Below, one piece after another: positions 38,784 to 62,799 of a stretch of DNA of 64,000 bases (position 1 is the stretch's first letter; each line of letters opens with the position of its first letter). Source of the stretch: Klenkia marina (GTDB taxonomy: Bacteria > Actinomycetota > Actinomycetes > Mycobacteriales > Geodermatophilaceae). The DNA lies in assembly GCF_900101025.1 (NCBI RefSeq), contig NZ_FMUH01000001.1:248001-312000 (forward strand). Direction: 5' to 3'. The translations under genes and the position numbers were made by a program. The notes below the pieces were generated by a model. The model did no database searches and had not been told where the DNA came from. It saw nothing but the letters and a program-made list of their open reading frames with translations.

Positions 38784-38810
38784 TCTTCGGCACATCACGA
38801 CGACGGTTGA
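38784..38810 (-). promoter_or_regulatory. Sigma-28-type promoter of flgN-flgK-flgL
   Basis: On the minus strand, TCAA (38810-38807) is separated by 15 bases from GCCGAAGA (38791-38784). The predicted leader is about 68 bases. Its -35 lies nine bases from the -35 of the divergent fliA promoter, and the two form the inverted repeat TTGAGC/GCTCAA. Confidence 0.65.
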
Positions 38811-38819
38811 GCCGAGCGC

Positions 38820-38847
38820 TCAAGTTCGGTGACGGAGTTGCCGAGGA
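38820..38847 (+). promoter_or_regulatory. Sigma-28-type promoter P1 of the fliA-type gene
   Basis: TCAA (38820-38823), a 16-base spacer, then GCCGAGGA (38840-38847). It would give a leader of about 30 bases. Confidence 0.55.
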
Positions 38848-38850
38848 GGG

Positions 38851-38878
38851 TCAGGTGTGACTCGTGGTGCGCCGAGAT
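38851..38878 (+). promoter_or_regulatory. Sigma-28-type promoter P2 of the fliA-type gene, leaderless
   Basis: TCAG within GGTCAGG (38851-38854), a 16-base spacer, then GCCGAGAT (38871-38878). The GTG start follows after seven bases in the context GCGTGAAC, so the mRNA is predicted to be leaderless. Confidence 0.5.
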
Positions 38879-38885
38879 AGGGGGC

Positions 38886-39836
38886 GTGAACCCGTCCCGC
38901 CCGTCGCCTCCCCAGGCGGGCCCCTCCCGACCCGGCCGGACCGCCCCCGCGGCCCCGGTCGGCACCGGTGTGGACGCACTGGTCACCGAGCACCTCGCGC
39001 TCGCCCAGTACGCCGTCAACGCCGTGGCCGCCCGGATCTCCCTGCCGGCACACGTCAGCCGCGAGGACCTCCTCTCCTGTGCACAGGTCGCCCTCGTGGA
39101 GGTGGCCCGGCGCTTCGACGCGACCGCCGGCGCCACGTTCGCCACCTATGCTCTACCCCGCCTCCAGGGCGCCGTGCTCGACGAGCTCCGCTCGGGCGAC
39201 TGGGCCAGCCGCTCGGTGCGGGCCGCTGCCCGGCGCAGCGACGCCGCCGCCGACGCCCTGGCCGTGCGGCTGGGTCGTCCCCCGACGCGCGTCGAGCTGG
39301 CCGCCGAGCTGCAGGTCTCCCCCGCCGAGCTGTCCTCCCTGCAGGTGGACGTGCACCGCGCGGTCATGGTGAGCATCGACGCCAGCACCGGCGAGGACGG
39401 CACCGGGTTCGACGTGCCCTCCACCGGCGACTCCCCCGAACGCACCCTGGTCAAGCGCGAGCGGGCCCGCCATCTGCACGAAGCGGTGCTGGCGCTGCCC
39501 GACCGTCTGGGTGAGGTCGTCGAGCGCAGTTTCTTCGGTGACGAATCGCTGACCGACATAGCGGCCGACCTCGGCGTGACGCTCTCGCGGGTCTCCCAGA
39601 TGCGCGCTCGCGCCCTGACCCTGCTGCACGCGGCCATGAGCGAGGCGTGGGAGGAACGGGCGGTCGCGCCCCAGGGCGGCGTCCGGGCCCGGACGCAGCA
39701 GAGCGGGTACGTGGCCCAGGTGGTGCAGCGGACCGCCGGGGTGTCACGGCCGCAGCTGGTCGGCTCCCGCGCGCTCTACCCCCCGCCGCCGCGCAGCTCG
39801 GCCGCGGTGCGGCGGGCCTTCGGCCAACCCGCCTGA
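38886..39836 (+). CDS. fliA: FliA/WhiG-type motility sigma factor
   Basis: A 316-residue RNA polymerase sigma factor that should direct flagellar genes. Region 2 is visible as LAQYAVNAVAARISLPAHVS, then SREDLLSCAQVALVEVARRF and GATFATYALPRLQGAVLDEL. Region 3 follows as DALAVRLGRPPTRVELAAEL, and region 4 as VLALPDRLGEVVERSFFGDE and SLTDIAADLGVTLSRVSQMR. About 70 residues of proline- and glutamine-containing tail extend the C-terminus beyond typical FliA. The GTG at 38886 fits the P2 spacing. The TCAN-GCCGAT promoters around it suggest it controls itself and the rest of the locus. Confidence 0.88.
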   Translation: MNPSRPSPPQAGPSRPGRTAPAAPVGTGVDALVTEHLALAQYAVNAVAARISLPAHVSREDLLSCAQVALVEVARRFDATAGATFATYALPRLQGAVLDELRSGDWASRSVRAAARRSDAAADALAVRLGRPPTRVELAAELQVSPAELSSLQVDVHRAVMVSIDASTGEDGTGFDVPSTGDSPERTLVKRERARHLHEAVLALPDRLGEVVERSFFGDESLTDIAADLGVTLSRVSQMRARALTLLHAAMSEAWEERAVAPQGGVRARTQQSGYVAQVVQRTAGVSRPQLVGSRALYPPPPRSSAAVRRAFGQPA

Positions 39837-39876
39837 CCCGGGTGGGGGGGCCGCGGAAATTCCTGCGCGGTTCCGC

Positions 39877-39904
39877 TCAAGCTCCACCCGGTCCCAGCCG
39901 TAAA
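39877..39904 (+). promoter_or_regulatory. Sigma-28-type promoter of flagellin
   Basis: TCAA within CGCTCAAG (39877-39880), a 16-base spacer, then GCCGTAAA (39897-39904). The leader to the ATG would be about 65 bases. Confidence 0.6.
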
Positions 39905-39924
39905 CACCTCCGTACCACCCGCAG

Positions 39925-39971
39925 CACGGATGCAGCGGGAACCACCCAGCACAGCCTTTATCCAGGAGGAT
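39925..39971 (+). promoter_or_regulatory. Possible CsrA-binding sites in the flagellin leader
   Basis: The leader holds CACGGATG (39925-39932) and the ribosome site CAGGAGGAT (39963-39971). Both are of the ANGGA/GGA type bound by CsrA, and one covers the Shine-Dalgarno sequence. A two-site arrangement is known at hag of Bacillus subtilis. Because csrA is encoded 4 kb away, this control is plausible here, but no folding was done. Confidence 0.45.
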
Positions 39972-39975
39972 CACC

Positions 39976-41094
39976 ATGGGCATGCGCATCAACACCAACA
40001 CCGCGGCGATGAACGCCTACCGCAACCTGTCGGTCAACGACTCGGCGATGAGCAAGTCGCTCGAGAAGCTGTCCTCGGGTCTCCGCATCAACCGCGCTGC
40101 GGACGACGCGGCGGGTCTGGCCATCTCCGAGGGCCTGAAGTCCCAGATCGGTGGCCTCAAGGTCGCCACCCGCAACACGCAGGACGGCATCAGCGTCGTG
40201 CAGACCGCTGAAGGTGCGCTGGCCACCACCCAGAACATCCTCCAGCGCATGCGCGACCTCGCCGTGCAGGCCGCGAACGACAGCAACGACGGCAGCGCTC
40301 GCACCTCGATCGCCAACGAGGTCACCTCGCTGCGCGACGAGCTGAGCCGGATCGCCGACTCCACCAACTTCAACGGCAAGAAGCTGCTGGACGGCACCAC
40401 CGCGTCGCTCGACTTCCAGGTCGGTGCCAACGGCGACACGGCCAGCAAGATCACCGTGAACCTCGCCACGGCCAACGTCAGCACCATCGCCACCACGCTG
40501 ACCAGCGGCGGTGCCGGCACCTCGTTCGCCGTCGACACGCCCACGGCGGTCACCGGCAACCTGGCGTTCATCGCCGACGGCAACACGACCACCGTCGCCA
40601 TGGGTGCCGCCGGCACCTACAAGACGGTCCAGTCGGTCGCCGACAAGCTGAACTCGGACGCCTCGTTCCAGCAGCGGTTCACCGCCTCGGTGGACAAGGA
40701 CAACAAGCTGCAGGTCGTCGCCCGCACCGGCTCGGCCCTCACCGTGACGGCGCCGGGTACCGGTGTCGCTGCGGGTACCGCCAACACCGGTGGCCTCAGC
40801 TTCGCCGACGCGGCGTCCGCCCGGACGTCGATCACCACCATCAACACCCAGATCGGCCTGGTCTCCACCGCCCGGGCCGCCCTCGGTGCGATCCAGAACC
40901 GCTTCGAGTCCACCATCGCCAACCTGAACATCGCGGTGGAGAACCTCTCGGCGTCGAACTCGCGCATCGTCGACGTCGACATGGCCTCGGAGATGACCGA
41001 GTTCAGCAAGAACCAGATCCTGGTCCAGGCCGGCACCTCCATGCTGGCCCAGGCCAACCAGTCCTCGCAGTCGGTCCTCAAGCTCCTGCAGTGA
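39976..41094 (+). CDS. fliC: Flagellin
   Basis: The filament subunit. The 372-residue protein has the conserved N-terminal D0/D1 helices (MRINTNTAAMNAYRNLSVND, LSSGLRINRAADDAAGLAIS, TEGALATTQNILQRMRDLAV) and C-terminal helices (ENLSASNSRIVDVDMASEMT then FSKNQILVQAGTSMLAQANQ). Residues about 145-270 are the exposed, Thr/Ser/Ala-rich variable part that usually carries O-linked sugars. A strong AGGAGGA site is five bases upstream. The codons are somewhat less GC-rich at third positions than in neighbours, as expected for a highly expressed gene. Its own terminator makes it a single-gene unit. Confidence 0.96.
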   Translation: MGMRINTNTAAMNAYRNLSVNDSAMSKSLEKLSSGLRINRAADDAAGLAISEGLKSQIGGLKVATRNTQDGISVVQTAEGALATTQNILQRMRDLAVQAANDSNDGSARTSIANEVTSLRDELSRIADSTNFNGKKLLDGTTASLDFQVGANGDTASKITVNLATANVSTIATTLTSGGAGTSFAVDTPTAVTGNLAFIADGNTTTVAMGAAGTYKTVQSVADKLNSDASFQQRFTASVDKDNKLQVVARTGSALTVTAPGTGVAAGTANTGGLSFADAASARTSITTINTQIGLVSTARAALGAIQNRFESTIANLNIAVENLSASNSRIVDVDMASEMTEFSKNQILVQAGTSMLAQANQSSQSVLKLLQ

Positions 41095-41134
41095 GCTGAG
41101 GCGGGAGGAACACCCGCAGCACAGCACTCCCGGT

Positions 41135-41164
41135 GAGGGGGGCGGCCACCCGGCCGCCCCCCTC
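41135..41164 (+). terminator. Flagellin terminator
   Basis: GAGGGGGGCGGCC and GGCCGCCCCCCTC form a perfect 13-bp stem with an ACCC loop, followed by TTC. Confidence 0.8.
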
Positions 41165-41209
41165 TTCGGCGTCCGGGTCCCCCGGACGAGGTGGGCGCCG
41201 CCGCTCGGC

Positions 41210-41236
41210 TCAACTCCCCGCCGCGACCGCCGATGT
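41210..41236 (+). promoter_or_regulatory. Sigma-28-type promoter of fliD-fliS
   Basis: TCAA within GCTCAAC (41210-41213), a 15-base spacer, then GCCGATGT (41229-41236). The leader to the fliD ATG is about 40 bases and includes a GAGGAGG site. Confidence 0.7.
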
Positions 41237-41282
41237 AGAGGGAGCGCCGACCGGCGCTCGGATCCACGAGGAGGACAGCGCC

Positions 41283-42689
41283 ATGGTGAACCTGGGAATC
41301 GACGGACTGGCCTCCGGGCTGGACACGACGTCGATCATCGCGAACCTGATGAAGATCGAGGCCCGACCGCAGGACCTGCTCAAGACGCAGCTGACCGACA
41401 CCCAGGCCAAGGCCGCCGCCTACCGCGCGGTCAACACCCGCCTCGACGCGGTCCGCTCGGCCGCCGAGGCGCTGACCACCGCCGGGCTGGCCGCGGCCCG
41501 CAGCGCGTCGAGCTCGAGCTCGACGGTCACCGCGAGCGCCTCCGCCGCGGCGGCCACCGGGGCCACCGTCCGGTTCGACGTGGTCTCGCTGGCCACGGCG
41601 CACACCGTGGTCCTGGGCCAGGACTTCACCTCGACCACGGCCCCGCTGCCGTCACCGAGCGTGCCGGCGTTCCCCATCGAGGTGCGCAGCACCGACGGCA
41701 CCAAGGTCGGCCGCATCGCGCTGCCGGCCAACGCGAGCCTGCTCGACGCGGTGTCGGCGGTGAACGCCAGCTCGTACGGCCTCAACGCCACCATCATCCA
41801 GGTGGAGCCGGGCCACTACCGCCTCCAGGTGAGCGCCAAGGAGACCGGCGCCGCCAACGCCTTCACCATCACCCAGGACGACGGCAGCGGCAGCACCCAG
41901 GTCGCCCTGGACGACGTCGCCGTGGTCGTGCAGGGCGGTGACGCCGAGCTCGACCTGGGCCTGGGCGACGGCACGCGCGCCCGGTCGGCCACCAACACCT
42001 TCACCGACCTGGTGCCCGGCACCAGCATCACGGTCTCGAAGAAGGAGTCCGGCGTCACCGTGTCGGTCGGGACCGACAACTCGGCCGTGACCGCCAAGGT
42101 GAAGGCGCTCGTCGACGCCGCCAACGGCGCGCTCTCGGCCATCAAGGTCTACAGCACCTCGACCGCCGGCACGACGAAGGCGACGCTGCAGGGCGACAGC
42201 ACCCTCGTGCGGCTCTCCGGCGAGCTGCTCAGCACGATCTCCTCCGCGGTCGGCGGCGGGAGCGCCAGCTCGATCGGCCTGCAGCTGTCCAAGGACGGCA
42301 CCATCTCCTTCGACCCCGCGGTCTTCTCGGCCACCCTGGCCAAGGACCCCGCAACCGTCGCGAGGCTGGTCTCGGGTACCGCCGCCAGCACGGTGGGCGG
42401 GGTCACCACGCCCGCCGTCACGGGCATCGCCGGGGCGTTCGCCGCGCTGGCCCGAGCCGCGAGCGACCCGTCGACGGGGTCCCTGACGATGCTGGCCAGC
42501 GGTCGCGACACCCTCGCCGACACGCTCCAGGACCGCATCGACGCCCTGGACATCCGGCTCGACGCCCGCCGTGCGGCACTCACCAAGCAGTTCACCACGC
42601 TCGAGACCGCACTGGGCACGATCAAGAACCAGTCGGCGTGGCTGAGCTCGCAGATCGGCCAGCTGTACAGCCCCAACAAGTCGTCCTGA
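41283..42689 (+). CDS. fliD: Flagellar filament cap protein
   Basis: The cap under which flagellin folds. The 468-residue protein begins with the FliD signature (LGIDGLASGLDTTSIIANLM). It has a variable Ala/Ser/Thr-rich centre and ends with a coiled coil (TLQDRIDALDIRLDARRAAL and KQFTTLETALGTIKNQSAWL). The ATG follows a GAGGAGG site. fliS lies 37 bases downstream. Confidence 0.93.
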   Translation: MVNLGIDGLASGLDTTSIIANLMKIEARPQDLLKTQLTDTQAKAAAYRAVNTRLDAVRSAAEALTTAGLAAARSASSSSSTVTASASAAAATGATVRFDVVSLATAHTVVLGQDFTSTTAPLPSPSVPAFPIEVRSTDGTKVGRIALPANASLLDAVSAVNASSYGLNATIIQVEPGHYRLQVSAKETGAANAFTITQDDGSGSTQVALDDVAVVVQGGDAELDLGLGDGTRARSATNTFTDLVPGTSITVSKKESGVTVSVGTDNSAVTAKVKALVDAANGALSAIKVYSTSTAGTTKATLQGDSTLVRLSGELLSTISSAVGGGSASSIGLQLSKDGTISFDPAVFSATLAKDPATVARLVSGTAASTVGGVTTPAVTGIAGAFAALARAASDPSTGSLTMLASGRDTLADTLQDRIDALDIRLDARRAALTKQFTTLETALGTIKNQSAWLSSQIGQLYSPNKSS

Positions 42690-42726
42690 CGCCCCCGCTC
42701 CCCCGAAAAGCCCAGGAGATCCCCCG

Positions 42727-43110
42727 ATGACCGCCGCGCTGCGTTCCCGCTACCAGTCCTCCGCCGTCGAGACGGCGTCCCCGCAGCGACTGCTGGTGAT
42801 GCTGTACGACCGGCTCGCGCTCGACCTGGTCCGCGCCGAGGCCGCCCTCACCGACGGGGACCGCGTGGAGGCGAGCGCCCAGCTCATGCACGCCCAGGAC
42901 ATCGTCCTGGAGCTGCACAGCACGCTGAACCCCGAGGTGTGGGAGGGCGCGGGCGCGCTCAGCTCGCTGTACACCTGGCTGTACGGCGAGATGGTGCTGG
43001 CCAACGTCAAGGGCGATGCCCGTCGGGTCGCCGACTGCCGCACCGTCGTCGAGCCGCTCCGCGACGCCTGGGCCGAGGCCGCGGCGATCCTGGGCCAGGG
43101 CAACGGGTGA
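42727..43110 (+). CDS. fliS: Flagellin export chaperone
   Basis: Binds the C-terminus of flagellin before export. The 127-residue helical protein has the FliS pattern SPQRLLVMLYDRLALDLVRA, HAQDIVLELHSTLNPEVWEG and LYTWLYGEMVLANVKGDARR. An AGGAGAT site precedes the ATG. Confidence 0.92.
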   Translation: MTAALRSRYQSSAVETASPQRLLVMLYDRLALDLVRAEAALTDGDRVEASAQLMHAQDIVLELHSTLNPEVWEGAGALSSLYTWLYGEMVLANVKGDARRVADCRTVVEPLRDAWAEAAAILGQGNG

Positions 43111-43532
43111 GCCTGCCCGGCCTCCGGGCCATCGGCTCAGCGGACCCCTGGCCGGCCACCGCACCGAACCCCGCCCAGGACCACCCGGGCGGCCGGCGCC
43201 GCCGGTCGGACACCCCGCCCCGCACCTGGGGCGAGGCACTCGACGACCTCGAGCACGACACGCGGTCGGCCGAGCGCACGCTGGCGGGTGCCTCGGCCGA
43301 GGAGATCGCGGCGTGGGGCCGCCGGTCCACCGACTGGGTGCCCCCCGCCGGGCTGGGGCCGCTGCCCGACGACCTGCGCGAGCGGGCCGCCCGGTTGCTG
43401 CAGCACCAGCTGGCCGTGGCCGAGGCCCTCGTCGAGGGCATCGTGCAGTCCCGGCGCCAGCGGGACGTCGCGGCGCGCATGTCCCAGTCGCCGGCCCGAC
43501 CTGCGTCCTCCTTCATCGACCGGCCGGTCTGA
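43107..43532 (+). CDS. Small hypothetical protein in the fliT position
   Basis: A 141-residue protein whose GTG overlaps the fliS stop by 4 bp. The first 40 residues are proline- and arginine-rich. The remainder has helices (EALDDLEHDTRSAERTLAGA and ERAARLLQHQLAVAEALVEG) ending IVQSRRQRDVAARM. Its location after fliS suggests a FliT-like secretion chaperone, but sequence similarity is not clear. A terminator follows. Confidence 0.6.
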   Translation: MSLPGLRAIGSADPWPATAPNPAQDHPGGRRRRSDTPPRTWGEALDDLEHDTRSAERTLAGASAEEIAAWGRRSTDWVPPAGLGPLPDDLRERAARLLQHQLAVAEALVEGIVQSRRQRDVAARMSQSPARPASSFIDRPV

Positions 43533-43556
43533 CCAGCAGCCAGCAGAACCCCACAG

Positions 43557-43592
43557 GACCCCCCACCCGACCTTCGATCGGGCTGGGGGGTC
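43557..43592 (+). terminator. Terminator after the fliD-fliS unit
   Basis: A stem of GACCCCCCACCCGA with TCGGGCTGGGGGGTC, interrupted by one small internal loop, is followed by TTGG. Confidence 0.75.
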
Positions 43593-43624
43593 TTGGCGTT
43601 GCATGCCAGATCGATGGTCACAAC

Positions 43625-43651
43625 TCAACATCCGAGGCGGCGCGCCGATGA
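43625..43651 (+). promoter_or_regulatory. Sigma-28-type promoter P1 of the flgB operon
   Basis: TCAA within ACTCAAC (43625-43628), a 15-base spacer, then GCCGATGA (43644-43651). Confidence 0.65.
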
Positions 43652-43725
43652 TGTGCTCGACACCCCAGCCACCTCCACCGCCCGTCCCGCCCCGGTCGTC
43701 ACACGCGTCGCCACGGCCACGATGG

Positions 43726-43753
43726 TCACGATGGGCCCGCGCACTGCCGATGA
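43726..43753 (+). promoter_or_regulatory. Sigma-28-type promoter P2 of the flgB operon
   Basis: TCAC within GGTCACG (43726-43729), a 16-base spacer, then GCCGATGA (43746-43753). It lies about 100 bases downstream of P1 and about 93 bases before flgB. Confidence 0.6.
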
Positions 43754-43811
43754 ACGGTGCACACGACGGACCTGCCTTCCCGAGGGTCCGCCGAGGCACC
43801 CGGAGGTAGTG

Positions 43812-43850
43812 ATGGAGCGCGTGACGCCCGGACGGACCGTCGTCCGTTGA
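43812..43850 (+). CDS. 12-codon leader peptide coupled to flgB
   Basis: An ATG with a CGGAGGT site four bases upstream opens the frame MERVTPGRTVVR. Its TGA (43848-43850) overlaps the TTG start of flgB (43847-43849). flgB itself has no good ribosome site, so ribosomes ending here probably start flgB. Confidence 0.55.
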   Translation: MERVTPGRTVVR

Positions 43851-44200
43851 TCGGCATCGGCGACACCACGACGACCGCGTTGCACGCCGCCCTCTCGGGG
43901 CTGGCGCAGCGGCAGCGGGTCAGCGCGGACAACATCGCGAACGTCAACACCCCGGGGTTCCTGGCCGGGCGGACCGACTTCGAGTCCAACCTGCGCTCGG
44001 AGCTCAGCTCCGGCGACAGCCCCGCCATCACCGGCGGCTCGGTGCACCGGTCGCTGGCGGCCACCCGCACCGACGGCAACAACGTCGACCTGGACTCCGA
44101 GACCGTCATCGCCACCGAGACCGGCCTGCGCTACTCGCTCGCGCTGCAGGCCCTCAACGGCAAGTACGACCTCCTGAGCGCCGCCATGAGGACCCAGTGA
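43847..44200 (+). CDS. flgB: Flagellar proximal rod protein
   Basis: Part of the rod through the cell wall. The 117-residue protein starts at TTG (IGIGDTTTTALHAALSGLAQ) and contains the rod signature RVSADNIANVNTPGFLAGRT and the C-terminal ALQALNGKYDLLSAAMR. The GTG at 43757 would add 30 non-conserved residues, so I prefer TTG despite its weak ribosome site; a leader peptide can supply ribosomes. It is the first gene of a long operon to flgE. Confidence 0.9.
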   Translation: MIGIGDTTTTALHAALSGLAQRQRVSADNIANVNTPGFLAGRTDFESNLRSELSSGDSPAITGGSVHRSLAATRTDGNNVDLDSETVIATETGLRYSLALQALNGKYDLLSAAMRTQ

Positions 44201-44604
44201 GCGCCTTCGACGCCCTCCGGATCGCCGGCTCGGGCATGACGCTGCACCGCAAGTTCCTCGACGCCGTCTCGGACAACGTCGCCAACATCAACACCGCGGC
44301 GGCGCCCGGCCAGGAGGCGTTCAAGGAGCGCTTCATCGTGGCCCAGGCCAACGACTACGGGTCGGGCACCGGCGGCGTCCGGGTCGCCGGGGCGGCGTTC
44401 GGCAGCGGCGAGGGCAAGCTCGTCTACTCCCCCGACAACCCGATGGCCGACGAGGGTGGCTACGTCCGCATGCCCGACATCGACCTCGGCACGCAGATGA
44501 CCAACATGCTCATCGCCCAGCGCGGCTACCAGGCCAACATCAGCGCGATCTCGCGCGCCACCGACGCCTACCAGGCGGCCCTCTCGCTCGGGAAGAACCT
44601 GTGA
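44197..44604 (+). CDS. flgC: Flagellar proximal rod protein
   Basis: The 135-residue rod subunit has the N-terminal LDAVSDNVANINTAAAPGQE, the EGGYVRMPDIDLGTQMTNML segment and the C-terminal AQRGYQANISAISRATDAYQ helix. The GTG overlaps the flgB stop. Confidence 0.93.
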   Translation: MSAFDALRIAGSGMTLHRKFLDAVSDNVANINTAAAPGQEAFKERFIVAQANDYGSGTGGVRVAGAAFGSGEGKLVYSPDNPMADEGGYVRMPDIDLGTQMTNMLIAQRGYQANISAISRATDAYQAALSLGKNL

Positions 44605-45014
44605 CCGTCAACCCGCTCGCCCTGACCACCGGCTACGGGGTGGGTGTCAGCTCCGGCTACCGCAACAACGGCGTCAGCAACAGCATCCCGGCCGGGGACA
44701 TCAGCGGCATGCTGACCAGCGGCATCTCCTCCACCGGCACGGTCGGTGCGGTCGGCACCCCGGGCACCGGGCAGGTCGCCCGCACCGCCGACGGCAGCAC
44801 GTTCGCCGACATCCTCACCGGCTCGATCGGCCAGCTGCAGGGTCTGCAGAGCACCGCCGACGGCTACGCGAAGCAGGCCGCCACCGGCGACCTGCAGGAC
44901 GTCCACGACTACATGATCGCCGCGTCCGAGGCCAAGCTCGCCACCACCGCCGTCGTGACCATCAAGAACAAGGCCGTCGAGGCGTTCAACGACATCATGC
45001 GGATGCCGGTCTGA
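44601..45014 (+). CDS. fliE: Flagellar hook-basal body adaptor
   Basis: Joins the MS ring to the rod. The 137-residue protein has a Gly/Ser/Thr-rich N-terminal half. The FliE helices TFADILTGSIGQLQGLQSTA and ATGDLQDVHDYMIAASEAKL, then NKAVEAFNDIMRMPV, form the C-terminal half. The GTG overlaps flgC by 4 bp; the stop overlaps the fliF ATG by one base. Confidence 0.9.
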   Translation: MTVNPLALTTGYGVGVSSGYRNNGVSNSIPAGDISGMLTSGISSTGTVGAVGTPGTGQVARTADGSTFADILTGSIGQLQGLQSTADGYAKQAATGDLQDVHDYMIAASEAKLATTAVVTIKNKAVEAFNDIMRMPV

Positions 45015-52914: not shown

Positions 52915-52926
52915 GCAGGAGACCCC

Positions 52927-53349: not shown

Positions 53350-53388
53350 CCCGGCGCTCCCCCGCCCACCCCACCCCAGGAGTCCCCC

Positions 53389-54678: not shown

Positions 54679-54697
54679 CCTGGGTCAACCGGTAGGC

Positions 54698-54728
54698 GGC
54701 CCGGTCACCCCAACGGGGTGACCGGGCC
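54698..54728. terminator. Terminator after flgE
   Basis: GGCCCGGTCACCCC and GGGGTGACCGGGCC form a perfect 14-bp stem around AAC, followed by GTTCCCC. Confidence 0.8.
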
Positions 54729-54736
54729 GTTCCCCT

Positions 54737-54763
54737 TCAGAGACCCCGCCGGCGCGCCGAAGA
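54737..54763 (+). promoter_or_regulatory. Sigma-28-type promoter of flbD-motA-motB-fliL
   Basis: TCAG within CTTCAGA (54737-54740), a 15-base spacer, then GCCGAAGA (54756-54763). The leader to the flbD GTG is about 33 bases. Confidence 0.6.
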
Positions 54764-54802
54764 GATGTGTGCGCCACCCACGACGACGACCTGGAGACAC
54801 CG

Positions 54803-55114: not shown

Positions 55115-55115
55115 C

Positions 55116-55895: not shown

Positions 55896-56827
55896 GCAAG
55901 CACGACTCCGGCGGCAAGGGCCGCCGCCGGCACGAGGAGCACGAGGAGGAGGAGCACGAGAACCACGAACGGTGGCTGGTGTCCTTCGCCGACATGATGA
56001 CGCTGCTGACCGCCGTGTTCATCGTGCTGTACTCGATCAGCCAGGTCGACCAGCTCAAGTTCGCCGCGTTCGCCGAGGGCCTGTCCGAGAGCTTCGGCGC
56101 CCCGACCTCGATCCTCGAGGACGGCTCGGTCACCACCCAGACCAGCGTGCTCGACGAGCTCAACTCGCCGATGCAGGTGGACAACCAGACCGACCCCACC
56201 CAGCAGGTCGACGGCACCACGATGGCCGCCGCGCAGGCCGCAGCCCTCGCCCAGCAGTCGGCGGAGACCCAGGCCGAGGCCCAGGCCCAGTACGACCAGC
56301 TGGCCGCGGCGCAGGCGGCGATCACCGCCGCGTTGACCGCCGCCGGGGACGCCGGCGCCGCCACGTTCCAGATCACGAAGGACGGCCTGGTCGTGCACAT
56401 CGTCGCCGACCAGGTGCTCTTCGGGGCGGAGGAGGCCGACCTGCGCGGGGAGGGCAAGACCGTGCTGGACGCGATCGCACCCACCTTGGCCGGGCTGCCC
56501 AACCAGCTGCAGATCGAGGGGCACACCAACTCGCTGCCGGTGACCCCGGGCGGGCGGTACGGCTCCAACTGGGAGCTGTCCTCGGCGCGGGCGACCAACG
56601 TGCTGCGCTACCTGGTGGAGACCGACGGTCTCGACCAGAACCGGGTGCAGGCCGCCGCGTTCGCAGCGACGCGCCCGCTCCTGCCCGACTCCGACCCGGC
56701 TTCGGTGTCGGTCAACCGCCGGGTCGACGTCGTCGTCCTGTCCACCGCCTCCGCCGAGGCCAGTGCCCTGCTGCCCGGGCTCGCGTCGCAAGCCGCGGCC
56801 ACCACCCCCGAGGAGACCACCCCGTGA
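55892..56827 (+). CDS. motB: Flagellar stator protein MotB
   Basis: Anchors the stator to the wall and carries the ion-binding aspartate. The 311-residue protein starts with a charged His/Glu tail, then one span with the aspartate in RWLVSFADMMTLLTAVFIVL. It has a long Gln/Ala helix and the OmpA-like peptidoglycan-binding domain (LQIEGHTNSLPVTPGGRYGS and WELSSARATNVLRYLVETDG). The ion used, H+ or Na+, cannot be read with certainty. The ATG overlaps motA by 4 bp. Confidence 0.93.
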   Translation: MSKHDSGGKGRRRHEEHEEEEHENHERWLVSFADMMTLLTAVFIVLYSISQVDQLKFAAFAEGLSESFGAPTSILEDGSVTTQTSVLDELNSPMQVDNQTDPTQQVDGTTMAAAQAAALAQQSAETQAEAQAQYDQLAAAQAAITAALTAAGDAGAATFQITKDGLVVHIVADQVLFGAEEADLRGEGKTVLDAIAPTLAGLPNQLQIEGHTNSLPVTPGGRYGSNWELSSARATNVLRYLVETDGLDQNRVQAAAFAATRPLLPDSDPASVSVNRRVDVVVLSTASAEASALLPGLASQAAATTPEETTP

Positions 56828-57306
56828 GCGCACCGACCAAGGAACGCCCCGCCAAGGGCAAGGAGATCAAGGACGCCGAGGACGGCGAGGAGAAGAAGGG
56901 CGGCAAGCTCAAGCTGATCATCGTCGCCGTCGTGGCGCTGCTCGCGATCGGTGCCGGGCTCTACTTCTTCGTGTTCTCCGGCGGCGGCGAGGACGCCGAG
57001 CCCGCGCCGGTCGCCGGCATCGAGCTGCCGCTGGACGACGTGACCATCAACCTCGCCGGCGGGGGGTACCTCAAGATCGGGGTCACCCTGCAGCTGACCG
57101 AGGAGGCCGGCGAGACCGCCCCGGGCACCGCCAAGGCCACCGACATCATCATCGACATGTTCTCCGAGGCCCAGCCCACCGACGTCACCGGCAACCGCGA
57201 CGCCATGAAGGCCGAGCTCGAGAAGCGCCTCGAGGAGGCCTACAACACCGAGGAGGCCGGGGACATCGTGATGGGGGTGTACTACACCTCCTACGTCACG
57301 CAGTAG
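56824..57306 (+). CDS. fliL: Flagellar basal body-associated protein FliL
   Basis: A 160-residue stator-associated protein with a Lys/Glu-rich N-terminus, a membrane span (LIIVAVVALLAIGAGLYFFV) and the FliL domain (LDDVTINLAGGGYLKIGVTL, with DIIIDMFSEAQPTDVTGNRD). The GTG overlaps motB. The 66-bp hairpin element begins two bases after the stop. Confidence 0.88.
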   Translation: MSAPTKERPAKGKEIKDAEDGEEKKGGKLKLIIVAVVALLAIGAGLYFFVFSGGGEDAEPAPVAGIELPLDDVTINLAGGGYLKIGVTLQLTEEAGETAPGTAKATDIIIDMFSEAQPTDVTGNRDAMKAELEKRLEEAYNTEEAGDIVMGVYYTSYVTQ

Positions 57307-57307
57307 C

Positions 57308-57373
57308 AGAAGGACCCCGTCCCACCCCACGACGCGCTCCGCACGTCGCGGGCCCCTGGGACGGGGCCGTTCC
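57308..57373. repeat. 66-bp dispersed hairpin element, copy B (inverted relative to copy A)
   Basis: Its reverse complement matches 32391-32456 at 60 of 66 positions. GGACCCCGTCCC and GGGACGGGGCC are the arms. Here it separates fliL from fliM on the same strand and probably ends the flbD-fliL unit. Confidence 0.75.
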
Positions 57374-57388
57374 ATCACCTCGCCACGG

Positions 57389-57416
57389 TCAGGGAGACCA
57401 CCCGGGCCGCCGATGA
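57389..57416 (+). promoter_or_regulatory. Sigma-28-type promoter of fliM-flhB, leaderless
   Basis: TCAG within GGTCAGG (57389-57392), a 16-base spacer, then GCCGATGA (57409-57416). The fliM GTG follows seven bases later in the context GCGTGACC. Confidence 0.6.
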
Positions 57417-57423
57417 GGGAGGC

Positions 57424-58392
57424 GTGACCCTCGCCGACGCCGTTCCCGCATCGCGCGGGGCGGCGTTGATGGCGTCCCGGCGCCGGCGCGGTGAACCGCG
57501 CAGCTACGACTTCCGCCGCCCCACCAAGCTCTCGCGCGACCACGTGCGGGTGCTGCAGAACCTGCTGGAGACCTTCACCCGGCAGACCGCCACCAACCTG
57601 ACCCAGGCACTGCGCACCGAGGTCAAGATGGAGCTGGGCGGGATCGACCAGTTCGCCTACGACGACTACATCGCGCACCTGGACAACCCGGTGTTCATGT
57701 CGGTCGTCACCTTCGAGCCGCTGCGCGGGCGCGGACTCATGACGTGGTCGATGGACATCGCCATGGCGATGATCGACCTCCTGCTGGGTGGATCGGGCGC
57801 GGCCGAGCAGCCGCAGCGCCCGATGACCGGCATGGAGACCCGCCTGGCCAAGTACCCGGTCGAGCGGGTGCTCCACGAGCTGGGCACGGCCCTGCGCCCC
57901 ATCGTCCGCGTGGACTTCGGCCTCGAGGGGTTCGAGTACCAGCCGAACCTGGCCCAGTTGGCGGTCAGCTCGGAGACCGTCGTGGTCTGCTCCTTCTCCC
58001 TCACCCTCGGTGAGCGCGAGACCGAGGCCACGCTCATGCTGCCCTTCGCGCCCTTCGCCCCGGCGCTGCACGGCGCGACCTCCCCCCAGCTCTCGGCGCA
58101 CGCCCTGCGCGAGCGGCAGCAGGCCGCCGACGCGTTGTCCGACCGGCTCGGCGCCGTCCCGGTCGAGGTCAACGCCCGCTTCCGGCCGATCACCGTGCCC
58201 AGCGCCGACCTGCTGTCCCTGGCCGTCGGCGACGTCCTGCTGCTGCGGCACCCGCGGGACAGCCCGCTGGAGGTCACCACCAACGACGTCGTCTTCGCCC
58301 ACGCCGTGGCCAGCAACCACCGACGGCGGCTGGCCGCCGAGATCGTCGCCACCCCGCCCGGTTCCACCAGCACCACGAGGGACGCCCAGTGA
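57424..58392 (+). CDS. fliM: Flagellar motor switch protein FliM
   Basis: The C-ring protein that normally receives CheY-phosphate. The 322-residue protein has YDFRRPTKLSRDHVRVLQNL, the middle CheC-like domain (IAMAMIDLLLGGSGAAEQPQ, PMTGMETRLAKYPVERVLHE) and a C-terminal SpoA domain (PVEVNARFRPITVPSADLLS). The N-terminal CheY-binding peptide is poorly conserved (LADAVPASRGAALMASRRRR). The GTG start fits a leaderless mRNA, although an AGGGAGG lies just upstream. Confidence 0.93.
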   Translation: MTLADAVPASRGAALMASRRRRGEPRSYDFRRPTKLSRDHVRVLQNLLETFTRQTATNLTQALRTEVKMELGGIDQFAYDDYIAHLDNPVFMSVVTFEPLRGRGLMTWSMDIAMAMIDLLLGGSGAAEQPQRPMTGMETRLAKYPVERVLHELGTALRPIVRVDFGLEGFEYQPNLAQLAVSSETVVVCSFSLTLGERETEATLMLPFAPFAPALHGATSPQLSAHALRERQQAADALSDRLGAVPVEVNARFRPITVPSADLLSLAVGDVLLLRHPRDSPLEVTTNDVVFAHAVASNHRRRLAAEIVATPPGSTSTTRDAQ

Positions 58393-59141
58393 GCACCAGC
58401 ACCGCCGGCCGCAACGACGACGCCGCCACCATCTCCGCCGCCGTGGTCGCCGCGGCGGAGGCCGCCGGGGCGCTGCTCCCGGCCCCGTCCGCGCTCAGCA
58501 CCGGCACCCCCGTCGACGACCCCGACATCGCCCCGCTGCCCGGCGACGCCCCCGCGGCCATCACCGCACGGCTGTCCGGCGAGGTCAGCGGCGACGTCGT
58601 CCTGGTCGTCGCCGGATCCGTCGTCGAGGCCCTGGCGAACTCCCCGGTCGGCAAGCTGGACGTCGCCGCCGCGATGCGCCCCGCGCTGGAGGCCGCCGCC
58701 AGCGTCCTCGGTCGGGTGACGGTCACCAGCGAGCGCATGGAGGAGCCCGAGGCGGCTCTGGACGGGCTGCGCGACAAGGGCGTCTTCCTCGCCGTCCCGC
58801 TGCTGGCCGGCGGCGAGCACCAGGCCACCCTCGCGCTGCAGGTCACGCTCCCCCGCGCGCAGGCCACCCAGCGCGGCAGCCTCGAGCTGCTGCGCAACGT
58901 GGCCATGGAGGTCACCGTCGAGATCGGCCGCACCCGCATGACGGTGCAGGAGCTGCTCTCGCTCTACCCGGGCGAGATCGTCGAGCTGGACCGTGCGGCC
59001 AGCGCCCCGGCCGACCTGCTGGTCAACGGCACCCTCATCGCGCGCGGCGAGGTGGTCGTGGTCGACGAGGAGTTCGGCCTGCGGATCACCGAGGTGGTCA
59101 CCGACGCCGCGGCCGCCGAGCTCGGGCAGGCCTCGGCATGA
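58389..59141 (+). CDS. fliN: Flagellar motor switch protein FliN, long (FliY-like) form
   Basis: A 250-residue C-ring protein. The last 80 residues are the SpoA domain (LLRNVAMEVTVEIGRTRMTV and LLSLYPGEIVELDRAASAPA, then DLLVNGTLIARGEVVVVDEE). The first 165 residues resemble a diverged CheC/FliM-middle-type domain, as in FliY, but the phosphatase motifs of active CheC/FliY are not visible. The GTG overlaps fliM by 4 bp. Confidence 0.9.
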   Translation: MSTSTAGRNDDAATISAAVVAAAEAAGALLPAPSALSTGTPVDDPDIAPLPGDAPAAITARLSGEVSGDVVLVVAGSVVEALANSPVGKLDVAAAMRPALEAAASVLGRVTVTSERMEEPEAALDGLRDKGVFLAVPLLAGGEHQATLALQVTLPRAQATQRGSLELLRNVAMEVTVEIGRTRMTVQELLSLYPGEIVELDRAASAPADLLVNGTLIARGEVVVVDEEFGLRITEVVTDAAAAELGQASA

Positions 59142-59686
59142 CCTGGATGGTCATCCGGCTGATCCTGTCGCTGGCCTTCGTGGGTGGCGTCCTGTGGTTC
59201 GCCGCCCGCGTGGCGAAGAAGCGCGGGCTCGGGATGGGCAACGGGCTGATCGAGGTCGTCGCGCGGCAGCGGATGGGCCGCAGCAGCACCGTCAGCGTGC
59301 TGCGGGTCGCCGACCGCGTGCTCGTGGTCGGCAGCACCGAGGAGAACGTCACGCTGCTGGCCGAGATGGACGCCGAGGTCGTCGAGGAGGTGCTGGCCGA
59401 GGCCGAGCAGGAGCGCCTGGCCGTGCAGGAGGCCCGCCGGGTCGCCGTCGCCGCCCGTCGCACCACCCCCCAGCTGGAGGGGGCCGACGACCTCGAGCCC
59501 ACCGACCCGCCCACCACCCGCATCGCCCTGCCCCCCATCCCCGGCCGGCCCGGCGCCCGGCGTCCCGTGCCGGCTGCCCGCCACGGCCACGGACCGACGG
59601 CCGGGCTCACCGCCGGCTCGGTGTTCGACCGTGCCGCGTGGACCCAGCTGGTCGAGGGGCTGCGGGAGCGGACGGTGCGCCGCTGA
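59138..59686 (+). CDS. fliO: Flagellar biosynthesis protein FliO
   Basis: A 182-residue protein that helps assemble the FliP ring. It has one N-terminal span (MVIRLILSLAFVGGVLWFAA), a short strand-rich domain (VVARQRMGRSSTVSVLRVAD, VLVVGSTEENVTLLAEMDAE) and a Pro/Arg-rich tail of about 65 residues. The ATG overlaps fliN by 4 bp. Confidence 0.85.
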   Translation: MTWMVIRLILSLAFVGGVLWFAARVAKKRGLGMGNGLIEVVARQRMGRSSTVSVLRVADRVLVVGSTEENVTLLAEMDAEVVEEVLAEAEQERLAVQEARRVAVAARRTTPQLEGADDLEPTDPPTTRIALPPIPGRPGARRPVPAARHGHGPTAGLTAGSVFDRAAWTQLVEGLRERTVRR

Positions 59687-60510
59687 TGCCCGCGCTCCTG
59701 CGGGAGCGCGCCGGTCGCTGGGCCACCCGGGTGGGGGTGGTCGCCGCCGTCGGCGCCACGCTCCTCTGCCTGACCGCGACCGCCGCCCTGGCGGTCGACG
59801 ACCCCACCGCTCCGGTCGACCCCACCGTCCCGGTGGTCGACGGCGGCGGACTGGACATCAACATCGGGGGCGACAGCCCCTCCAGCGCCATCACCCTGAT
59901 CCTGGCCATCACGGTGCTGTCCGTCGCGCCGTCGCTGCTGCTGCTGGTGACCTCGTTCACCAAGATCGTCGTGGTGCTGTCGTTGACCCGCAACGCCCTG
60001 GGTCTGCAGAACTCCCCGCCCAACCAGGTGCTCACCGGGCTGGCGTTCTTCCTGACCCTGTTCGTGATGGGGCCGGTGATCGCCGACATCAACCACCTGG
60101 CCATCCAGCCCTACCTCGACGGGCAGCTGTCGGTCGGGCAGGCCTACGACGCCGGAGTCGAACCGCTCAAGCACTTCCTGCTGGCCAACACCCGCGGCGA
60201 CGAGCTCAAGCTCATGGTCGGGCTGAGCGGTGAGGACATGCCCGCCGACCCCGAGGCCGTGAGCATGCTGACGCTGGTGCCGGCCTTCGTGCTCAGCGAG
60301 CTCAAGAGCGCGTTCATCATCGGCCTGGTCGTCTTCATCCCGTTCCTGGTGCTGGACATGCTGGTCAGCGCCGCGCTCATGGCGATGGGCATGATGATGG
60401 TGCCGCCGGTGATCGTGTCGCTGCCGTTCAAGCTGCTGCTGTTCGTCGTCGTCGACGGCTGGGCCCTCATCACCACCGCGCTGGTGGGTTCCTACGGGAG
60501 CTACGGCTAG
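59686..60510 (+). CDS. fliP: Flagellar export gate protein FliP
   Basis: A pore-forming subunit of the export gate. The 274-residue protein has an N-terminal signal-like segment (VGVVAAVGATLLCLTATAAL), then the core with LLLVTSFTKIVVVLSLTRNA, PNQVLTGLAFFLTLFVMGPV, FVLSELKSAFIIGLVVFIPF and MGMMMVPPVIVSLPFKLLLF. The ATG shares one base with the fliO stop. Confidence 0.95.
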   Translation: MPALLRERAGRWATRVGVVAAVGATLLCLTATAALAVDDPTAPVDPTVPVVDGGGLDINIGGDSPSSAITLILAITVLSVAPSLLLLVTSFTKIVVVLSLTRNALGLQNSPPNQVLTGLAFFLTLFVMGPVIADINHLAIQPYLDGQLSVGQAYDAGVEPLKHFLLANTRGDELKLMVGLSGEDMPADPEAVSMLTLVPAFVLSELKSAFIIGLVVFIPFLVLDMLVSAALMAMGMMMVPPVIVSLPFKLLLFVVVDGWALITTALVGSYGSYG

Positions 60511-60785
60511 TGAGCGACGCGCAGATCACCGACATCGCGGTGCAGACCATGGTCGTCGCGGCCAAGGTCTCGGCACCGATCCTCCTGACCGCGCTGCTGG
60601 TCGGCTTCGCGATCTCGCTGTTCCAAGCGGCGACCCAGATCCAGGAGCAGACCCTCTCCTTCGTGCCCAAGCTGGTCGCGGTGGCCATCGCCCTGGTCAT
60701 CACCGGGAACTGGGTGCTGTCGGAGCTGGTCTCCTTCACCCACCACCTCTTCGACGCACTGCCGGCGCTGCTCGGCCGGAGCTGA
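60510..60785 (+). CDS. fliQ: Flagellar export gate protein FliQ
   Basis: A 91-residue gate subunit with two membrane helices (VAAKVSAPILLTALLVGFAI and VAVAIALVITGNWVLSELVS) and the family segment ISLFQAATQIQEQTLSFVPK. The GTG shares one base with the fliP stop. Confidence 0.93.
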   Translation: MSDAQITDIAVQTMVVAAKVSAPILLTALLVGFAISLFQAATQIQEQTLSFVPKLVAVAIALVITGNWVLSELVSFTHHLFDALPALLGRS

Positions 60786-60789
60786 CGGC

Positions 60790-61554
60790 GTGGACCTCGA
60801 CGTCTCCGAGGCCACCCTCGCAGCCCTGCTGCTGGCCACCGCGCGCACCGCCGGCTTCGTGCTGCTGGCCCCGCCGTTCAACTCCAAGGCCATCCCGGGA
60901 GCCGTGAAGGGCGCGCTCTCGGTGTGCCTGGCCCTCGTGGTGTTCCACCAGGTCGAGAGCCAGCTCGGCGTCCTGTCCGCGGGCTACCTCGTGCTCACCG
61001 CGCTGACCGAGGTGGTCATCGGCGCCGCGCTGGGGTTCGTCGTCCAGCTGTTCTTCGCCGCGATCCAGCTCGCCGGCGACATCCTCGACGTCACCGGCGG
61101 CTTCTCCCTGCAGCCCGCCTACGACCCGCTGTCGATGAGCACCGCCTCGACCATCGGCCGCCTGCAGAACCTGCTGGCCACCGCGCTGCTGTTCACCAGC
61201 GGAGGGCACCTGCTGCTCGTGCGCGGGCTGTTCACCTCCTACGAGGGGCTGCCACTCGGCGCGGTGCTGCCCGGCGACCAGGTGGGGCAGGTCGTCGTCC
61301 ACGCGATGTCGACGATGTTCCTGGCCGCGCTGCAGATCGCCGGGCCGCTGGTCGCGGTGCTGCTGCTGGCCGACGTCGCCCTGGGCCTGGTGTCCCGGGC
61401 GTCGCCGCAGATGAACATCTTCGCCCTGGGCTTCCCGGTCAAGATCATGCTCACGCTGGTCATGCTCGGGCTGACCTTCCCGCTGCTGCCCACCGCGCTG
61501 GACACGCTGATGGACACCGCGACCCGCGCCATGCTCTCGTTCCGGGCGGGCTGA
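60790..61554 (+). CDS. fliR: Flagellar export gate protein FliR
   Basis: A 254-residue integral membrane gate subunit with about six hydrophobic segments. Recognisable parts are ARTAGFVLLAPPFNSKAIPG, VIGAALGFVVQLFFAAIQLA, GFSLQPAYDPLSMSTASTIG and LVSRASPQMNIFALGFPVKI. The GTG is four bases after fliQ. Confidence 0.93.
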   Translation: MDLDVSEATLAALLLATARTAGFVLLAPPFNSKAIPGAVKGALSVCLALVVFHQVESQLGVLSAGYLVLTALTEVVIGAALGFVVQLFFAAIQLAGDILDVTGGFSLQPAYDPLSMSTASTIGRLQNLLATALLFTSGGHLLLVRGLFTSYEGLPLGAVLPGDQVGQVVVHAMSTMFLAALQIAGPLVAVLLLADVALGLVSRASPQMNIFALGFPVKIMLTLVMLGLTFPLLPTALDTLMDTATRAMLSFRAG

Positions 61555-61558
61555 CGCC

Positions 61559-62743
61559 GTGGCCGACTCCCCGGGTGGTGAGAAGACCGAGAAGCCGACT
61601 CCCCAGCGCCTGAAGAAGGCGCGCGGAGAAGGCCAGATCCCACGGACGCAGGAGCTCGGCACCTGGATGGGTGCGGTGGCGGCGAGCTTCCTGCTGCCCA
61701 TGATGGCCAGCTCGTCGTTCGAGGCGGCGGGTCAGCTGTTCGGCCAGATCGGGCAGATCGCCCGCACCCCCGACGTGTCCGCGATCGAGCACCTGCTCGG
61801 CGAGGCGCTCTCCTCGTTCCTCGGTGCGGCGTTGCCGCTGGCCGCCGGCGTCCTGGTCGTGGGGGTGATGTCCTCGGCCGTCCAGGGCGGTGTCGTGTTC
61901 GCCAGCAAGCCGGTGAAGCCGTCGTTCAGCAAGATCAACCCGTTCCCGGGCCTCAAGCGCATGTTCGGCGGGCACGGGCTCTGGGAGGTCACCAAGGCGC
62001 TGCTGAAGACCATCGCCATCGCCGTGGCGATCCTGCTCACCGTCTCCGACGTGAAGGCCCTCGTGGCGTCGTCGGGGTCGATGCCCCTGTCGGTCGTCGC
62101 CGGCGTCTTCACCGACTCGGCGCTGATGATGATCCGGGTCGCCGCCCTCACCGGGCTGGTGCTCGCGGTCGCCGACTACGCCGTCGTGCGCTTCCAGCAG
62201 ATGAAGAAGCTCAAGATGAGCCACTACGAGATCAAGCAGGAGCACAAGCAGCAGGAGGGTGACCCGCACGTGAAGGGCCACCGCCGCGCCGTCGCGCTCG
62301 CCCAGGCGCGCAACCGCATGATGACCGACGTCACCACGGCCGACGTCCTGCTCACCAACCCCACCCACGTCGCCGTGGCGCTGAAGTACTCCCCCGCGTT
62401 CGGGGCACCGAAGGTCGTGGCCAAGGGGTCGGGCGAGGTCGCCCGGCGACTGCGCGAGCTGGCCGCCGAGCACGGCGTCCCGCAGGTGCGCGACATCCCG
62501 CTCGCCCGTGCGCTGCACGGCAGCTGCGACATCGGCCAGGAGATCCCCCCGCAGCTGTTCACCGCCGTGGCCCGGGTGCTCGCCTTCGTCATGCAGCTGG
62601 GCCTCAAGGGCGTGAAGGGCGGGGTGCACCAGCCCGGCTTCACCCCGCCGGACACCGAGGGCCTGCCGGTCGCCGGCCGCCGGCGCGCGACACCGGTCGC
62701 CGGCGGGGGCACCGGCGCCGTGGGCGGCGTCGCCGCGGCGTGA
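61559..62743 (+). CDS. flhB: Flagellar export switch protein FlhB
   Basis: Controls the switch from hook to filament export after self-cleavage. The 394-residue protein starts EKTEKPTPQRLKKARGEGQI, has four membrane segments and the INPFPGLKRMFGGHGLWEVTK linker in between, and carries the self-cleavage site LTNPTHVAVALKYSP with the NPTH motif. The last 40 residues are a variable Gly/Ala/Pro tail. The GTG is four bases after fliR. Confidence 0.94.
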   Translation: MADSPGGEKTEKPTPQRLKKARGEGQIPRTQELGTWMGAVAASFLLPMMASSSFEAAGQLFGQIGQIARTPDVSAIEHLLGEALSSFLGAALPLAAGVLVVGVMSSAVQGGVVFASKPVKPSFSKINPFPGLKRMFGGHGLWEVTKALLKTIAIAVAILLTVSDVKALVASSGSMPLSVVAGVFTDSALMMIRVAALTGLVLAVADYAVVRFQQMKKLKMSHYEIKQEHKQQEGDPHVKGHRRAVALAQARNRMMTDVTTADVLLTNPTHVAVALKYSPAFGAPKVVAKGSGEVARRLRELAAEHGVPQVRDIPLARALHGSCDIGQEIPPQLFTAVARVLAFVMQLGLKGVKGGVHQPGFTPPDTEGLPVAGRRRATPVAGGGTGAVGGVAAA

Positions 62744-62771
62744 TCTGCGCGGCCGGTCCGTGACGGGGCGG

Positions 62772-62799
62772 TCACGGCCACCGGGCCGCCTGCCGATGT
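62772..62799 (+). promoter_or_regulatory. Sigma-28-type promoter of flhA, leaderless
   Basis: TCAC within GGTCACGG (62772-62775), a 16-base spacer, then GCCGATGT (62792-62799). The flhA GTG follows eight bases later in the context GCGTGAAG. No ribosome site is present, which supports a leaderless mRNA. Confidence 0.6.

Follow-up and report, generated by a model that had tools for sequence, protein, structure and literature searches.

The flagellar gene cluster of Klenkia marina (Geodermatophilaceae) raises the question of which sigma factor reads its promoters, and whether its transcription units are switched on together or in stages. The cluster lies in a stretch of 64,000 nucleotides (NZ_FMUH01000001.1, positions 248,001 to 312,000), here called the window, which is part of contig C7 of the 4.2 Mb genome (G000). 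Coordinates are those of the window unless another contig or a locus is named. An initial annotation had proposed that one sequence, related to the promoters of sigma-28 factors, precedes nearly all flagellar units, and that a FliA-type sigma drives them all in a flat hierarchy. Each flagellar unit whose gap was examined is preceded by a site of this kind, and the sites fall into two classes. The reading that we favour, with moderate confidence, is that these are real sigma-28-type promoters read by the FliA encoded in the cluster, and that in Geodermatophilaceae the set is split into an early and a late class.

Sites before the flagellar units

All ten sites listed in the initial annotation were located in the window using the pattern TCAN-N15/16-GCCG[A/T]. 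The -35 element is TCAN (TCAA, TCAG or TCAC) in all ten and TAAA in none, the spacer is always 15 or 16 bases, within the 14-16 of sigma-28 promoters, and the octamer starts with GCCGA in nine, the exception being fliC with GCCGT. Two sites precede fliA on the forward strand, P1 (38820-38847, TCAA-N16-GCCGAGGA) and P2 (38851-38878, GG-TCAG-N16-GCCGAGAT), and P1 is divergent from the site of flgN(-flgK-flgL) on the reverse strand (38784-38810, TCAA-N15-GCCGAAGA). The remaining sites, all on the forward strand, precede fliC (39877-39904, TCAA-N16-GCCGTAAA), fliD (41210-41236, TCAA-N15-GCCGATGT), flgB (P1, 43625-43651, TCAA-N15-GCCGATGA, and P2, 43726-43753, GG-TCAC-N16-GCCGATGA), flbD-motA-motB-fliL (54737-54763, CT-TCAG-N15-GCCGAAGA), the fliM operon (57389-57416, GG-TCAG-N16-GCCGATGA) and flhA (62772-62799, GG-TCAC-N16-GCCGATGT).

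As had been claimed, the sites lie in intergenic gaps. All eight of the strand-specific gaps contain a match. When each gap was shuffled 2000 times with dinucleotide composition preserved, 0.13 sites were expected in total, compared with the ten present. The pattern was derived from these sites themselves, and orthologous regions from other genera serve as the independent tests. Neither strand of 11 other intergenic gaps (1199 bases, window positions 1-35000) contains a match.

Orthologous regions, of up to 200 bases upstream and with A or T allowed after GCCG as at fliC, were taken from the flagellar clusters of 20 further genomes of the family, seven from Klenkia and 13 from eight other genera. 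Outside Klenkia, the pattern was present in 57 of 88 regions, with 1.28 expected. It was found at fliC (10/10), fliM (13/13), cheB (13/13), flgB (12/13) and flbD (9/13). At fliD and flhA it was found in none of 13 regions each, and these two sites were seen in Klenkia only (six and seven genomes, respectively); flgB P1 was seen in two Klenkia genomes. The strict TCA search also missed the flgN sites of other genera, where the -35 element is mostly TTGA. With a relaxed -35, a site was found in 13 of the 14 genomes listed, 11 of the 13 having TTGA. The cheB operon is on a separate contig (C8) and was not used in making the pattern, and its site (L090:7864-7891) was among the genome-wide matches. 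TCAA-N15/16-GCCG lies 40-70 bases upstream of cheB in 20 of 21 family genomes, representing nine genera, and 144 bases upstream in the other (G047).

Conservation of the boxes in the matrix run was inflated by the search pattern, and positions free of the pattern, namely the fourth base of the -35 element and the last three of the octamer, were used instead. With one genome per genus, identity at these positions was 1.00 for fliM, 0.71 for cheB, 0.63 for fliC and 0.56 for flgB, compared with 0.48, 0.39, 0.47 and 0.46, respectively, in the spacers.

The octamer GCCGATGA precedes fliM in 21/21 genomes (nine genera), and in all of them an in-frame GTG, with no intervening stop codon, lies 7 or 8 bases past it (57424-57426, forward strand, in the window). 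At fliA, 18 of 19 genomes have a GTG 7-8 bases past an octamer with GCCGAG (7 bases downstream of P2 in the window); the exception, G047, has a stretch that starts close to the gene, and a second candidate with TTG, in G109, was not counted. In the window, flhA has a GTG at 62808, 8 bases past its octamer. Given this distance at fliM, flhA and fliA P2, leaderless mRNAs are predicted, and the conserved GTG codons would agree with 5' ends 6-9 bases past the octamer, as the initial annotation had predicted. Near flgB, a frame of 12 codons (43812-43850, forward strand) has a Shine-Dalgarno-like GGAGG ahead of it and overlaps, at its end, the TTG start codon of flgB, an arrangement suggestive of translational coupling.

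Early and late promoter classes

The single promoter sequence initially described is not supported as such, and in Geodermatophilaceae the sites take two forms. At early units (21 fliM, 19 flgB P2 and seven flhA sites), G precedes TCA and the spacer is 16 bases in 47/47 sites, including all 19 at flgB P2. At late units (17 fliC, 20 cheB and six fliD sites), C precedes TCA in 39/43 sites, the others having G (three) or T (one). The fourth base of the -35 element is A in three of the 47 early sites but in 43/43 late sites, with cheB restricted to TCAA rows. The early count excludes sites that lack TCA, such as the further variant GG-TAAG-N16-GCCGATGA at flgB of G111. The flgN and fliA rows are outside both totals, and flbD was omitted from both as mixed. 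One overlapping row each was dropped for cheB (TCAT, G024) and flbD (G107), and the early group excludes the two rows of flgB P1 (gap >150).

The early class is mostly GGTCA[G/C]-N16-GCCGATGA, found at fliM, flgB P2 and flhA, with a looser form at fliA P2. The late class is mostly C-TCAA-N15/16-GCCG with another octamer end, found at fliC (TCAA-N16-GCCG in 17/17 sites kept, from seven genera), fliD, cheB, fliA P1, flgN of K. marina and flbD outside Klenkia; flgB P1 is also of the late type. A class matrix was trained on the fliM and flgB sites versus the fliC and cheB sites of other genera. Its log2 (early/late) values for the K. marina sites were +12.8 (fliM), +10.5 (flgB P2), +7.2 (flhA), +1.8 (fliA P2) and +1.6 (flbD), and -2.3 (cheB), -3.3 (fliA P1), -4.5 (flgB P1), -5.6 (fliD), -7.3 (flgN) and -20.3 (fliC). 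All Klenkia sites at fliM (eight), flgB P2 (seven) and flhA (seven) scored as early, and all those at fliC (seven), fliD (six) and cheB (eight) scored as late.

The early class, consisting of the fliM, flgB and flhA operons and fliA P2, would supply the basal body, C-ring, export apparatus and FliA itself, and the late class, with fliC, fliD, cheB, fliA P1, flgN of K. marina and the non-Klenkia flbD-mot units, would supply the filament, caps, motor and chemotaxis proteins. A division of the classes by assembly stage suggests an ordered assembly program, in which the two would fire at different times, rather than one flat switch.

Candidate readers of the two classes

The product of fliA (38886-39836, forward strand) is a FliA-type sigma-28 factor of 316 amino acids. 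It matches positions 1-223 of the 224 in TIGR02479 with about 144-145 bits, below the curated cut-off of 189.6, and is classed here as FliA-like by its location and its best PDB matches, which are WhiG and FliA.

A wider comparison used a class-wide sample of 393 genomes, from which 20 with a FliA-type match were chosen, ten with a single match (E ≤ 1e-16) and ten with more. Since this search detects the WhiG of K. marina at 6.7e-27, a WhiG in the single-match genomes, referred to as FliA-only, should also have been detected. Sites within -60 to 125 bases were taken. In the FliA-only genomes, they were found at flgN (6/10), fliC (5/9), flgB (8/9), flbD (4/4), fliM (1/2) and cheB (3/6), in total in 27 of 59 regions compared with 0.70 expected. 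In the multi-match genomes, they were found at flgN (8/10), fliA (2/10), fliC (6/10), fliD (1/5), flgB (1/2), flbD (1/2), fliM (1/2) and cheB (2/8), or in 22 of 49 regions compared with 0.57 expected. Of the ten FliA-only genomes, a site precedes flgB or fliM in eight, a late unit in nine and both kinds of unit in seven. As these genomes carry TCA-type sites at early and late genes, the cluster FliA is the likely reader of the K. marina sites, and it appears that a TCA-type set spanning both can occur with FliA as the only sigma-28 factor. The sigma-28-like appearance of the sites and a FliA-type sigma as their likely reader, both proposed in the initial annotation, are supported; its single sequence and flat hierarchy are not supported as stated. 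In the other families, C precedes TCA in 47/47 non-fliA sites and the spacer is 15 bases in 45 of these (two fliA rows, with T before TCA and a spacer of 16, are not included in the 47). Within this sample, the early class with G appears to be a derived state of Geodermatophilaceae.

An excerpt of PMC8325347 gives the consensus for sigma-28 (FliA/SigD/WhiG) promoters as TAAA and GCCGATAA. The -35 difference had been attributed to a high-GC variant of this consensus, an explanation that is needless, as it accompanies a changed residue in the recognition helix of the sigma factor. In the FliA sequences that aligned (that of G401 did not), the motif is SRVSQ-x-R or SRISQ-x-R, and an Arg takes the place of the His of WhiG and E. 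coli FliA (Q-x-H). This pairing would be a clean candidate for co-evolution of a sigma factor and its promoters. A further change, of T-E-S-R to T-L-S-R, is restricted to Geodermatophilaceae within the sample. FliA of this family also has RLQGA in region 2, in place of the RIRGA of E. coli FliA and WhiG, and a C-terminal extension past region 4.

In the favoured reading, region 4 of the FliA holoenzyme would contact a TCA-type -35 element, rather than the TAAA of E. coli FliA and WhiG, region 2 would read GCCG(A/T), and transcription would start about 7-8 bases past the octamer. FliA would be switched on with the early genes and would then amplify its own expression and that of the late genes, and FliA reading both classes at different strengths is the most likely arrangement. 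FlgM, which would provide a checkpoint, was not detected in the genome by a search whose control recovers FlgM of E. coli, B. subtilis and Thermotoga. An excerpt of PMC10746217 likewise describes FlgM as missing from later actinobacterial classes.

Two further sigma-28-related proteins and an anti-sigma factor, RsiG, were outside the view of the initial annotation. One is encoded elsewhere in the window, at 33654-34721 on the reverse strand, following flgN-flgK-flgL-csrA. This divergent protein of 355 amino acids has an extra N-terminal alpha/beta domain of about 105 residues and a sigma-like remainder, in which region 2.2 is sigma-like and regions 2.3-2.4 are not. It scores 27.3 bits against TIGR02479 (cut-off 189.6), and its Pfam Sigma70_r2 match is also below the cut-off. 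Sigma factors in the PDB are matched at E 0.21-0.48 and are outranked by an unrelated designed repeat protein, and hhalign gives a probability of 4% to FliA and 74% to WhiG. In a Foldseek search with its model, seven matches with E ≤ 0.001 (6e-5 to 9e-4) were an RpsD (SigD) model, sigma-28 and WhiG, at template modelling (TM) scores of 0.21-0.27 and a mean predicted local distance difference test (pLDDT) value of 64. The protein is present in the flagellar clusters of 16/16 relatives examined (74-95% identity), the identity outside Klenkia (75-77%) is above that of FliM (55-62%), and all 17 sequences compared have the same recognition helix, TSVRNMNV. A search of 84,980 species genomes with family peptides, which remote relatives could escape, confirmed 89 relatives; the 80 listed are all Geodermatophilaceae records save one. 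The exception (L234, 77% identity) is labelled 'Bacillus sp. AZ43, UNVERIFIED_ORG' and its genome is probably mislabelled. In 20 genomes of other families, the matches found were all weak and, in the cases compared, coincided with the position of FliA. No sigma-28-type site was found before the gene in the window, nor among the matches listed for the 16 relatives.

The other is an orthodox WhiG (C10:356340, 280 bits), which scores 394.7 against the equivalog model NF004935 (cut-off 343); its gene adjoins one that reads like a tyrosine recombinase. RsiG, encoded at C8:668945-669496, matches chain T of 6pfj, the RsiG-WhiG complex of S. venezuelae, with E 3.8e-23. RsiG was recognized by two E(X)3S(X)2R(X)3[Q/H](X)3D motifs in one protein, and both of those found here, EVDLSYTRRLLQGRLD and ERGLSERRRGVQQVMD, have the Q form. 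The WhiG of K. marina retains the K, G and R that contact cyclic di-GMP (c-di-GMP) in the solved complex. The K57 and G61 of WhiG are not retained in the cluster FliA, even when a two-residue gap is shifted, and R62 depends on the gap. With K57 and G61 missing, RsiG probably does not hold the cluster FliA as it holds WhiG. In the 96 family genomes with a completeness of 90% or more, FliM and RsiG are both present in 92 and both absent from four (G071, G073, G074 and G075); these four also lack a WhiG over the cut-off. As FliM, WhiG and RsiG are absent together, loss of WhiG or RsiG was uninformative for telling the sigma factors apart. The presence of WhiG in other families was dropped as a predictor of the early class, as too few early units were in the stretches compared. 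No TAAA-type WhiG promoter set was found in the genome, a weak result, as the reversed control also gave none.

If FliA read all of the sites equally, the classes would carry no timing. A site in every gap is consistent with this, as is the presence of C before TCA and a spacer of 15 at early and late units alike in the sampled FliA-only genomes. However, the split in Geodermatophilaceae is near complete and tracks assembly stage, holding at fliM and cheB over nine genera, and fliA P2 and fliM have a common early layout with a close GTG. A flat hierarchy appears doubtful in Geodermatophilaceae and plausible in the FliA-only genomes sampled, and we regard it as rather unlikely here. A reader of the early class other than FliA was also considered. 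The family-specific divergent protein could act above FliA in a two-sigma cascade; in the sample, both it and the early class were seen only in Geodermatophilaceae, it is better conserved than FliM with an invariant helix, and fliA itself has an early-like promoter. However, both classes share GCCGA while regions 2.3-2.4 of this protein are unlike those of FliA and WhiG, the profile scores and model confidence are low, the early units read outside the family are few, 80 of the 89 relatives are listed, and the protein may bind no promoters at all. We think this explanation unlikely, though the protein is the boldest candidate for an early-class reader, or else a candidate modulator of FliA. WhiG, gated by RsiG and c-di-GMP as for Streptomyces sporulation genes, is a distinctly unlikely reader of the early class. 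Its c-di-GMP-contacting residues, the twin-motif RsiG and the co-occurrence of RsiG with FliM speak for it, but its -35 helix is of the TAAA-reading type whereas the early class has GGTCA, and the co-absence is based on few lineages. In addition, the one multi-sigma genome outside the family with both flgB and fliM sites read (G257) has C before TCA at both. The probabilities that we attach to these last two explanations and to reading by FliA overlap, as all share the late-class part. A combined account, which we put forward tentatively as a lesser possibility, is a cascade of sigma-28-type factors only, in which the divergent protein or c-di-GMP-gated WhiG would fire GGTCA[G/C]-N16-GCCGATGA (several of these promoters leaderless, including that of fliA) and FliA would then fire TCAA, giving order without FlhDC or FlgM.

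Several observations weigh against reading of both classes by FliA, or limit the evidence for it. TCA and GCCG were used to pick the sites and are conserved by construction, and at flgB the pattern-free positions are hardly more conserved than the spacer (0.56 versus 0.46). The split came to light in the very data used to support it, with the gap ranges chosen after viewing them, and the state of each unit is inherited within the family, so that the effective sample is about ten units rather than the number of sites. The cheB site of K. marina is weakly late and its flbD site weakly early (-2.3 and +1.6), and flbD switches class, with CT-TCAG at seven Klenkia sites and GC-TCAA at the eight kept from other genera. 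Outside Klenkia, fliA P2 is GGTGC[C/G] or GGTCCG with a fixed spacer of 16, retaining GGT and not TCA. The FliA-only genomes lack a site at fliA (0/10) and fliD (0/9), and TAAA-N14/16-GCCGA has no match genome-wide, a result that cannot separate the sigma factors as the reversed control also has none. Finally, a bare genome scan, as suggested with the initial annotation, is not specific. The strict pattern TCAV-N15/16-GCCGAWRW gave 35 matches compared with five for its reversed control, but genomes without fliM carry TCAV-N15/16-GCCGATGA at a similar density (seven in G073 and 13 in G075, compared with 12 in K. marina). Seven of the 35 are in the cluster and 28 elsewhere, of which 22 are within genes and six are not, one being the cheB site (a simple codon-composition gene caller makes this division crude). 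Within the window, TCAN-N15/16-GCCGA has 24 matches, nine of them among the ten sites. The scan was rejected as proof of a wider regulon, given the density in fliM-less genomes and the 22 intragenic matches. These matches are also what would be seen if the sites were chance products of codon bias, GCCGA being frequent in coding DNA of high GC content. However, the intergenic position of the sites, the shuffles, the recurrence over genera and families and the cheB operon contradict this as a general account, and we give it practically no weight. A regulon is thus defined by where the motif lies and how it recurs, and not by the motif in itself. The presence of sigma-28-type promoters before each flagellar unit whose gap was examined is well supported.

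Comparison with known systems and minor features

In E. coli, the flagellar genes form a hierarchy of class 2 and class 3 genes. The K. marina cluster resembles this in its early/late partition and in a fliA with two promoters, one of each type, but differs in that FlgM was not detected (FlhDC was not searched for) and in that both tiers have sigma-28-like boxes. Relative to sigma-28 promoters in general, the GCCGA core, the spacer of 15-16, the placement at flagellar and chemotaxis genes and the FliA-type sigma encoded in the cluster are alike, while the TCA-type -35 element, the lack of an octamer ending in TAA, the inclusion of early genes and the two sub-classes are not. The presence of WhiG and a twin-motif RsiG in one genome is as in known RsiG-WhiG systems. 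However, those gate sporulation or type IV pili, and the cluster FliA is without the K57 and G61 of WhiG. Geodermatophilaceae were already known to carry RsiG (16/16 species, in the excerpt of PMC8325347). The same excerpt states that the flagellar genes of Actinoplanes missouriensis are transcribed by WhiG-like flagellar sigma factors and that Actinoplanes has no RsiG, unlike K. marina, and an excerpt of PMC13293333 reports three FliA-family sigma factors in a single genome. An excerpt of PMC9686282 describes flagellar and chemotaxis genes in all genome sequences and motility in no strain studied, a pattern that would fit a tightly gated program. Nothing on these promoters was found in the excerpt of PMC10733313, and no early/late promoter split or third sigma factor in Geodermatophilaceae was found among the titles and abstracts of the matches listed from the open-licence literature. 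The combination of stage-split promoters, three sigma-28-related proteins and a c-di-GMP anti-sigma factor makes the timing of flagellar assembly in actinobacteria lacking FlgM directly testable.

Three other sites were recorded. A possible further site next to the gene for the divergent protein, TGGA-N15-GCCGATAC (33621-33647, reverse strand), precedes the gene pair 33211-33564 and 32457-33197; T[TC]GA-N15-GCCGATA is found before the same gene in five of 16 relatives, the other 11 being unmatched by the pattern there. At the cheB locus on contig C8, where CheB and CheX were named by family search and the remaining che genes were assigned by reading, a weaker candidate, TCAA-N16-GCCGAACC (L090:11696-11723), lies 48 bases before a chemoreceptor-like gene. 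An intergenic TCAC-N15-GCCGATGA (L051:1986-2012) is 40 bases before a reading frame of 204 residues.

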